The notes under the pieces are model-generated. The model was not told where the DNA came from, ran no database searches, and saw only the letters and a list, made by a program, of their open reading frames with translations. From Veillonellales bacterium (GTDB lineage Bacteria > Bacillota > Negativicutes > JAAYSF01), in contig JBDKTO010000025.1 of NCBI GenBank assembly GCA_039680175.1, positions 1 through 64,000 of the forward strand: a stretch of 64,000 nt of DNA. Direction: 5' to 3'. The position numbers and the translations under genes were made by a program. This document shows positions 3,001 to 18,754 of the stretch, piece by piece (within the stretch, counting starts at the first letter, position 1; each line of letters starts with the position of its first letter).

Positions 3001-6000
3001 CGGAACCAATGACATCAGCTTGACAAATACGAAAGCAACGAAACTGGCGGGAGTAACGGCTGGTCAGAACCTGACGGTAACGAGCGGCGGAGATATCAGT
3101 CAGAGCGGAGCGATAGATGCCCATAGCGGAACCACGACATTAACGGCAGGAACCGTTGGGAATGAAAAGGAGATCACGCTGCAGGATACCGGGAACAACT
3201 TTGGCAGCTTAGGAGCAACGGGTAGTGCAGTAAGCATTAATGATACCAACGGGATTACCTTGGATGATATTACGGCAGGCAGCCTGAACTTGACGGCGCA
3301 CGGAGCCGTAAGTCAGACGGGAGTTGGGAATAAAGTAATAGTCACCGGGGCAACGGCAGTGGATGCCAACGGCAGCATTATCACCTTGAACAACGCCGAT
3401 AACGACTTCGGCAGCTTCGGAGCCAAAGGCAGTGCGGTAACAGTCAATGATGCCAGCGGGATTACCTTGGACGACATTACGGCAAGCAGCCTGAACCTGA
3501 CAGCGCACGGAGCCGTGAGCCAGACGGGAACAGGGAATAAAGTAATAGTCACCGGGGCAACGGCAGTGACGGCCCAGAGCACGGATAGCGATGGCCATCC
3601 GGTAGCGCAGGTTATTACTTTAAGCAATAGCGATAACGACTTCGGTAGCTTTGGGGCAACCGGCAGTGCAGTAACGGTCAACGATAAGAACGGTATTATA
3701 CTGGACAACATCAACGGCAGCAGTTTGACACTGACAGCCGGCGGCAATGTGAGTCAGGTTTCCGGCCAGACAATAACGGCCACGAACCTGGCAGTAAGCG
3801 CCGGTGGGAATGTGAACCTGAAAGAAGCGAATACCATCGGTACGGCGGCGGTGGAGGCTGCCGGCCATGATGTTACGCTGCGGGATGACGGCGGCTTTAG
3901 CCTGGGAAGCGTTGTGCGGAGCAACGGAACGACGTTAAAGGGTATAGAGGCTAAGAACGTACACCTGATCAGTTCCGGTACAGTAAACGGAAATGCACCG
4001 ATTACCGCGAGCGGCCTTGCTTTGACGGGAACCGGCGGCGACTTCGAATTAGGAACGCAGAACAATACCATCAGTATCTTGGCCGCCCGTACCGGCAGCG
4101 TCATCTTGAACAATACCGGAGCAGTCAAGATTGGCACTGTGACGGCGAACGGAGTGACAACGGTCGGAGTAACCACCAGCGGCACGTTTAGCCTGACGGC
4201 AGGCGGCGATATTACGCAAGACCAGGCGATTGAGACGGACGGCACGGCGACGTTGGACGCCGGGACGCATGACATTGTCCTGAATAGCGGCAGCAACGAT
4301 TTCAAAGACAGCATAACGGCAGCGGGAGCAAACGTGACACTGGCCGACGCCAATGATATGGAATTGGGCAACATCAGTGCCACAGGGTTGCTGGACTTGA
4401 CGGCAGGCGGCGGAATCAGTCAGACGGCTGGCAAGACCATTAGTGCCACGAACTTGGCGGCGAGAGCTGGCGGCAGCGTCAATCTGAAAGAAGCCAACAC
4501 GATCGGTACGGCGGCAGTAGATGCCTCCGGTCATGACATCACTCTGCGGGATGACGGCGGCTTTGCCATAGGGGAAGTGACACGGACCGACGGGACGGTT
4601 TTGAACGGCATCAACGCCGGGAGCGGCAGCGTACAGCTGATCACTACCGGGACGGTAACGGAGAGTCAGCCGATCACGGCGAGGGGTTTGGAACTGACGG
4701 GTGATGGCGGGACGTTCGATCTGGAGCAGCCCAATAATATCGGGACCTTGGCGGCGGATACCGGCAGCATCACCTTGAAGAATAGCGGAGCGATCGACAT
4801 CGGCAGCGTTGCGGCGAACGGAGTCGAGACGGACGGCGTAAAGACCAGCGGCACTTTTAGCCTGACGGCCGGCGGAAATATTACCCAAGACCAGGCGATT
4901 GAGACTGACGGCACGGCGACATTTGACGCCGGGACAGGAGACATCCAGCTTGATGAGGCCAACAAATTTGGCGGTACGGTAAACGCCGCCGGTAATGATA
5001 TAACGCTGCATGATGCTGACAGCATAGACGTAGGGACTGTCACGGCGGGAGGCAATCTCAGCGTTGAGGCTGGTAATGGAGATATCATTGACAGCGGCGC
5101 AATTACGGTAGCCGACAACGCGCAATTCAGCGCCACGGGCGGTATGAGCCAGACCACTGGCAGCCTGACGATAGAGGGAACGACCGATATCGAGGCGGGA
5201 GCAGGAGCTATTGACCTGGGAAGCAGCAGCAATACCTTTACCGGAACAGTAACGCTGGCCAATAGCGGAACGAATGATATCAACCTGACGAATACCACAG
5301 CGACAACTTTAGGAGAAGTAACAGCCGGGCAAAATCTGGTGGTAACCAGCGGCGGAGCAGTGAGCCAAGCAGATAATACGACGATCACAGTACCGGGTAC
5401 AACGACCATTACGGCGGGAACTACAGGGAGTCCGGCCGATATCACACTGGACAAGGCAAACGATTTTGTAGGCAGCATTACGGCCGCAGGGTCAAACGTC
5501 ACGCTGCATGATGTGAGTACAAACGGTATGGAACTAGGCAATATAAATGCGTCGGGAGGCTTGGTAGACCTTACGGCAGACAACGGAATCAGCCAGACGG
5601 CCGGAACTAGCATGGATGCGGCCGAACTGGCGGCGAGTGCCGGCGGGAATGTGAATTTGAAAGAAGCCAACACAATCGGCACGGCGGCGGTGGCTGCTGC
5701 CGGCCATGAGATTACCGTGCGGGATGACGGCGGGTTTACGATAGGGGACGTACAGCGGACCGAGGGGACGACGCTTAGCGGGATCAACGCCGGAACGACA
5801 GGCAGCGTGCAGCTGATTACCGGCGATGCGGGGACGGTAACGCAAACTCAGCCGATAACAGCGGGCGGCCTGGAATTGACGGGCGCCGGCGGTACGTTTG
5901 ACTTGGAGCAGCCCAATAATATTGGGACATTGGCGGCGGATACCGGCAGCATCACCTTGAGGAATAGCGGAGCGATCGACGTCGGCAGCGTTACGGCGAA

Positions 6001-17911: not shown

Positions 17912-17941
17912 TTATTTCATCCTCCTCCAAAATTGAATAAC

Positions 17942-18044
17942 AAAAAACCGTCCGGGGATAGTTTTACTATGCCCAGACGGTCGGCTTTTCACTAATGCAG
18001 TCCTCGTGGTTATTTCCACTTATCCGTCAGTACTGTATTAGCGT
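17942..18044 (-). promoter_or_regulatory. ZTP (pfl motif) riboswitch with intrinsic terminator
   Basis: Read on the minus strand, an outer stem pairs bases 18040-18031 with 18001-17993, enclosing GACGGATAAGTGG, a GTGG/CCAC hairpin and GAGGACTG. After a short linker comes GCCGACCGTCTGGGCA, the conserved 3' stem-loop/pseudoknot segment of ZTP riboswitches. The same CCGTCTGGG arm can instead pair with CCCCGGACGG followed by a T-run (down to 17942), forming a terminator. Ligand binding should therefore favour pflB expression when ZMP/ZTP signals shortage of 10-formyl-tetrahydrofolate. Assigned by motif and layout. Confidence 0.85.
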
Positions 18045-18316
18045 GTATTCATCATTAAGATGCCCTTATTATAACGAATGGATAGGAGTCCGTCAATAAA
18101 AAAATAAAAATCTTTTAAAATTGTATACAAGATACAAAATTCGTGCTAGAATATTCTATAAATTGGTGATGAAGTTGCTGCTATTGAAATTCATCATGTT
18201 TACTAAGAATAAATTTTGCTGTAGTTTTCTTCTTTGCAGGTAAAATGCGGCTTTATGATAAATACTACTATATATTAATTTCAAAAATTTATTCGATTAA
18301 ATGCGGGAGGTATTAC

Positions 18317-18754
18317 ATGATGGATTTGACAAAGGTATTAGCAGTTGGACAGAATGCGGTCATGCGTAAAATTGTGCAAAAGTCGGATACGGCGGGGAAT
18401 TACACGAATGTTCTAAATGAATTGCTGGCTACACCGGCTTGTGTTGCCATGGTTATTAATGCTGCTGTAGAGACCATTGATAAATATTTACCTGATGGCT
18501 ATATCAGCATCGGTTATTCTGTACAATTTTCGCATACCGCGCCAACCAGTCTGGGAATGACTATCAGTGTAAAAACAACCATTTCTGAAATTGACGGACA
18601 TCACATAGTGCTGGATATTCTGGCATGGGATGAAATGGGGGAAATTGGCCACGGTCGGCATGAGCGGACGGTGGTCAATCGGGATGCATTGTTGAAAAGA
18701 GCAAAGGAACGCACGAAGTTTTTAGTTCAGAGAAACCTACAAGAAAGAAGGTGA
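18317..18754 (+). CDS. Hotdog-fold thioesterase (fluoroacetyl-CoA thioesterase-like)
   Basis: The 145-residue protein resembles small hotdog acyl-CoA thioesterases of the FlK type: a ...TPACVAMVINAAVE... helix, then VQFSHTAPTSLGMTI and VDILAWDEMGEIGHGRHER-like strands (native text reads LDILAWDEMGEIGHG). The ATG at 18317 follows GGGAGG by six bases; an adjacent ATG at 18320 is equally possible. It lies six bases before the next small gene and heads a cluster with a decarboxylase beta subunit. Hydrolysis of a short acyl-CoA is inferred; the substrate is not evident. Confidence 0.8.
   Translation: MMDLTKVLAVGQNAVMRKIVQKSDTAGNYTNVLNELLATPACVAMVINAAVETIDKYLPDGYISIGYSVQFSHTAPTSLGMTISVKTTISEIDGHHIVLDILAWDEMGEIGHGRHERTVVNRDALLKRAKERTKFLVQRNLQERR

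Follow-up and report, generated by a model that had tools for sequence, protein, structure and literature searches.

A candidate ZMP/ZTP riboswitch with an overlapping terminator in front of the pflB-pflA operon of a Veillonellales bacterium

The pfl locus and its leader

On the minus strand of the window, by which we mean the whole 64 kb stretch of Veillonellales DNA analysed here, genes for a pyruvate formate-lyase (PFL) and its radical SAM activating enzyme lie downstream of a leader that combines a ZMP/ZTP riboswitch aptamer with a predicted intrinsic terminator (Table 1), with a spacing of 52 nt from the aptamer to the pflB start. The likely promoter upstream of the aptamer comes from a scan by consensus only, which returned three sites in the region against a shuffle mean of 2.0, and is therefore weak evidence. 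Adjoining the leader on the other strand is a diverging ORF (18245-18754; 169 aa, or 145 aa from the second ATG), which we take to resemble a small thioesterase-type protein and whose 145-aa form has no NCBIfam match; beyond it lies the gene for the beta subunit of a sodium-ion-translocating decarboxylase (TIGR01109, 448 bits).

Table 1. Features of the pflB-pflA operon and its leader, with positions in the window
Feature	Position	Strand	Basis and remarks
Likely sigma-70-type promoter, TTGACG-17-TATAAT	18068..18096	-	11/12 consensus matches; 23 nt before aptamer
ZMP/ZTP riboswitch aptamer (P1, P2, P3, pseudoknot)	17964..18044	-	RF01750
P2, GUGG/CCAC hairpin; L3/P3 segment, GCCGACCGUCUGGGC	within aptamer	-	sequence
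Pseudoknot strand in J1/2, GACG	18025..18028	-	sequence; complements the L3 strand; both sides covary in relatives
Pseudoknot strand in L3, CGTC	17976..17979	-	sequence, fold; common to the terminator 5′ arm
Predicted intrinsic terminator hairpin	17946..17982	-	minimum-free-energy fold; overlaps L3 and part of P3
Terminator U6 tract	17942..17947	-	sequence; first two U also pair at the stem base in the fold
Shine-Dalgarno-like GGAGGAGG	17921..17928	-	sequence; 9 nt before ATG
pflB, pyruvate formate-lyase, 742 aa	15683..17911	-	TIGR01255, 1147.1 bits (cut-off 994.2)
pflA, PFL-activating radical SAM enzyme, 241 aa	14937..15662	-	TIGR02493, 262.5 bits (cut-off 231.75)

An aptamer that shares its 3′ part with a terminator

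A cmscan search of the whole 64 kb window against Rfam 15 returned a single match at the gathering threshold, namely to the ZMP/ZTP riboswitch family RF01750 at 17964-18044 of the minus strand, which scores 57.7 bits against a gathering score of 39 (E 9.5e-07) and covers the full model (positions 1-86). The match keeps the GCCG / CUGGGC core, has high posterior values across most positions and includes one non-standard model pair. Working from the letters of the sequence, the first-pass annotation had read an outer stem, a GTGG/CCAC hairpin and a pseudoknot/terminator segment, CCGTCTGGGCA, into this leader, and had predicted a significant minus-strand hit with the ZTP model; all three elements are present, the first two as P1 and P2, and the search delivers the hit. 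The limits it had set, 17942 and 18044, fall on the last U of the terminator tract and on the base where the aptamer match begins, respectively.

The 109-nt leader (17936-18044) has a minimum free energy of -38.9 kcal/mol; its shuffled versions average -21.95, and none of the 200 folds as well (z -5.58). In this fold, the 3′ part forms an 11-pair stem and a 5-pair upper stem that run into six U. Folded alone, the aptamer (17964-18044) forms P3 at -19.5 kcal/mol, a less striking result (z -1.93; six of 200 shuffles equal it) from a program that leaves pseudoknots out. P3 is thus formed without the terminator's 3′ arm and the terminator is formed with it, so that the leader encodes two mutually exclusive structures, as in a transcriptional riboswitch. 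A simple terminator pattern scan of the region returned no site, though the fold predicts one, probably because the pattern disallows mismatches within the stem.

Within the leader, these folds give the terminator the greatest stability, as would be expected if hairpin and T tract were a terminator or attenuator in their own right and the aptamer match a coincidence; this reading appears exceedingly unlikely, however, since L3/P3 of the aptamer itself supplies the hairpin's 5′ arm and the covariance-model match carries the low E-value given above. With a score above gathering, a pseudoknot between J1/2 and the P3 loop, a platform that overlaps the 3′ part of the aptamer and a one-carbon target gene, the element is instead assigned to RF01750, also known as the pfl RNA motif. 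Full aptamer, pseudoknot, overlapping terminator and pfl target are all common to the family and the window's switch, and nothing of substance differs: at one pseudoknot pair the window has A-U where the model has G-C.

ZTP sites and PFL loci among relatives

Across a set of 60 genomes, made up of the window's own and 59 related ones (two from its family, the rest from its class), we found 73 RF01750 sites in 51 genomes, with scores reaching 66.5 bits; as searches of more than 40 genomes ran with stricter filters, weak sites may be lost from this count. The sites form 71 loci, two of which hold two sites each, and the genes downstream encode PFL at 30 loci, an MFS transporter at 23, a PurH-type formyltransferase at 11, Fhs at five, and a dihydropteroate synthase fragment and a GTPase at one each. 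These genes were assigned by blastp against reference proteins from the set, with family names taken from hmmscan of representatives; the dihydropteroate synthase fragment and the GTPase served as their own references. The 30 PFL-linked loci come from 30 different genomes, and a ZTP site that recurs before PFL in 30 of the 60 genomes further argues against an incidental aptamer match beside an independent terminator.

The GTPase gene, presumably of the YchF type, lies 419 nt from its site (L026) and is a candidate target only. At another locus (L144, in genome G014), the riboswitch precedes a short dihydropteroate synthase ORF of 207 aa, a folate gene, whose product scores over the TIGR01496 cut-off.

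A second sample was based on PFL itself and consisted of the best 80 of at least 588 confirmed loci encoding PFL relatives in public genomes. An Rfam search placed RF01750 at 31 of these best 80, less than 400 nt upstream of the gene at 24, at 794-1056 nt upstream at six and downstream at one; the 24 include Pelosinus propionicus, Anaerospora hongkongensis, Pectinatus frisingensis, two Clostridium and six Agathobaculum records. No RF01750 match at gathering score was found at the other 49 of the best 80, two of the three Selenomonas ruminantium loci among them, and three of the 80 carry less than 300 nt of upstream sequence, where a site could be missed. Among the matches listed, the closest PFLs have 72-73% identity and belong to Pelosinus, Anaerospora and an uncultured Selenomonadales, which makes the Negativicutes the most probable source of the window. 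In Clostridium chromiireducens (L090), the ZTP site found (3411-3513) comes about 1 kb after the PFL match instead of before it, at a locus with only 194 nt of upstream sequence present.

The first-pass annotation had presented PFL as an unusual target for this riboswitch class, a view contradicted both by the neighbourhoods above, where PFL is the commonest ZTP neighbour, and by the literature. The available text of Binas et al. (2020, PMC7337938) derives the name of the pfl motif from its frequent association with pyruvate formate-lyase; that of Weinberg et al. (2010, PMC2864571) counts pfl among the motif's five commonest genes and lists purH, fhs, pfl, glyA and folD as purine or one-carbon genes of the class; and the pfl switch of C. 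beijerinckii serves as a well-characterised model (PMC10085676). As pfl is a long-known target of the class, the window's switch is a correct but ordinary new example. The rest of the earlier interpretation stands: a riboswitch merged with a terminator before PFL finds support in the covariance-model match, the predicted fold and the families of the two genes, and the link to one-carbon demand is upheld on the same grounds, with the ligand assigned by analogy. The annotation of a riboswitch-controlled pfl operon is thus confirmed and the idea of its unusualness corrected.

Covariation and platform in PFL-linked leaders

Pooling the 30 PFL-linked leaders of the 60-genome set with 24 from the public PFL records gave 54 leaders, or 52 distinct ones after two duplicates (L044 = L017, L033 = L121) were accounted for. 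The four-base L3 strand finds its complement in the 22-nt stretch around J1/2 in all 52 distinct leaders, and in 54 of 54 with the duplicates counted; the pseudoknot is of the type GGCG/CGCC in 34 and GACG/CGTC, the A-U form present in the window, in 18. When strands were paired across leaders, all 1428 within-type combinations matched, versus 52 of 1224 between types, which indicates that the two sides of the pseudoknot change together.

This conservation bears on the alternative of an intact-looking but inactive relic, or an altered-ligand variant, in which the fold is kept and ZMP sensing lost. The window's score falls below those of the best relatives (up to 66.5 bits), one model pair is non-standard, and ZMP binding is a prediction from class membership; against this, the match is full length with its core kept, the pseudoknot has been maintained through changes on both sides, and relatives show the same placement ahead of PFL, all of which makes loss of function or a change of ligand very unlikely.

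A terminator-like stem of at least eight pairs, built from L3/P3 and standing before a T tract, occurs in 40 of the 54 leaders (38 of the 52 distinct) versus 70 of 540 controls, which were leaders with shuffled downstream DNA. All 30 leaders of the 60-genome set have this overlapping stem versus 10 of the 24 public-record ones, a comparison in which treatment was slightly unequal, as the latter were cut about 10 nt into PFL and the former at a fixed length. The 14 of 54 leaders in which a strong overlapping terminator was not found are all among the 24 from public records; the platform is therefore not uniform across relatives, though it is clear in the window. A looser terminator test, passed by 54 of 54 leaders, was dropped as uninformative, since four pairs, obtainable from P3 itself, satisfied it.

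A model for control of pflB-pflA

We propose, with a probability of roughly 95%, that the element belongs to the known ZMP/ZTP class and controls the pflB-pflA operon as a transcriptional ON riboswitch. The aptamer match, the overlapping terminator, the gene identities and the conservation were computed for the window; a terminator whose 5′ arm overlaps L3/P3 and which ends in U6 counts for the riboswitch, and the points against it in the window are the non-standard aptamer pair, the weak promoter match and the lack of a site in the simple terminator scan. In its ligand, its ON direction, its path of strand displacement and its metabolic role, the switch would follow the characterised class, whose ligand was reportedly validated by Kim and colleagues in 2015.

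By analogy with that class, the switch most likely responds when one-carbon units run short and activates expression of the formate-making enzyme pair. Scarcity of 10-formyl-THF would leave PurH without its formyl donor, leading ZMP (AICAR) and ZTP to build up; ligand binding would stabilise P3 and the pseudoknot between J1/2 and L3 (GACG/CGUC), and the ligand-held aptamer would then resist the downstream invader strand, CCCCGGACGGU, such that no terminator forms and transcription reads through into pflB-pflA. The formate made by PFL could be converted to 10-formyl-THF by formate-THF ligase. When ligand is absent, the terminator would displace P3 and the pseudoknot, with low pfl expression as the predicted outcome.

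Such a path has precedents, one of them in Thermosinus, a related Negativicutes genus. The T. carboxydivorans ZMP riboswitch is described as switching transcription ON, with P3 nucleotides recruited into its terminator, as predicted in the window (Binas et al. 2020, PMC7337938), and follows a logic corresponding to that of the C. beijerinckii pfl ZTP riboswitch, an ON switch in which, except when ligand is bound, the terminator arises as an invader strand breaks up P3 and the pseudoknot (Bushhouse and Lucks 2023, PMC10085676); the likeness to the latter is one of description and concerns another organism. That PFL formate feeds the formyl-THF needed by PurH is the rationale given in the available part of Weinberg et al. 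(2010, PMC2864571).

The rest of the window's genome is consistent with this role. A whole-genome search found one ZTP riboswitch, that before pflB, and no second one, for instance on fhs or purH; with the window's PFL as query, no second PFL outside the control of the switch was found in the genome, so that the one PFL found is the one under the switch. The genome also holds one Fhs gene (PF01268, contig C43) and one PurH-type gene (PF01808, contig C16), neither on the contig of the ZTP site. With both genes present, formate would be usable for the purine ring. Having the only ZTP switch found on the only PFL found suggests that PFL serves here in biosynthetic formate supply and not in fermentation alone.

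ZTP sites before OFA-type transporters

At 23 of the 71 ZTP loci in the 60-genome set (L002, L003, L004, L009, L013, L015, L024, L027, L028, L117, L123-L125, L128, L130, L134, L135, L138, L143, L148-L151), the riboswitch precedes an OFA-type MFS transporter, a target outside the five commonest genes given in the available text of Weinberg et al. (2010, PMC2864571). By blastp, the transporters at these loci are at least 58% identical to that of L002, whose full-length protein passes the L-lactate MFS transporter model NF049980 (SfMCT) with 391 bits (cut-off 320) and also matches oxalate/formate antiporter models, though short of their cut-offs. The same test of at least eight pairs detects an overlapping terminator in 21 of the 23 transporter leaders, a set run without a shuffle control. 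Broad literature queries, covering top-ranked results only, found no ZTP switch before such a transporter, and we claim no novelty for the arrangement.

We tentatively raise the possibility, which we hold to be rather less probable than its negation, that the ZTP switches of this bacterial class, the Negativicutes to judge by named relatives, form a formate-supply regulon extending beyond the five commonest genes, with pfl, fhs, the PurH-type formyltransferase gene and often an OFA-type MFS monocarboxylate transporter gene as members, in which the transporter would move formate, or swap it for a different acid, when formyl-THF is short. A formate-related transport role of the OFA-type protein would fit such a regulon and is a guess on our part; if the regulon exists, the alarmone would steer not only purine synthesis but also the end products of fermentation. 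In the window's own genome, the PFL branch alone was found under a ZTP switch, and the best match to an SfMCT-like transporter, at 244.3 bits, stays below the cut-off of 320 and lies on a contig other than that of the ZTP site.

Two relatives (G023 and G033) carry tandem complete ZTP aptamers before the MFS transporter gene, at 1384-1583 of L028 and 1375-1582 of L024. Tandem ZTP riboswitches are known, the available part of a 2022 review (PMC9481103) giving five instances, four with genes of THF metabolism and one with moeA. In L028, each aptamer is followed by a terminator-like hairpin, the second predicted by folding and the first read by eye from the sequence.
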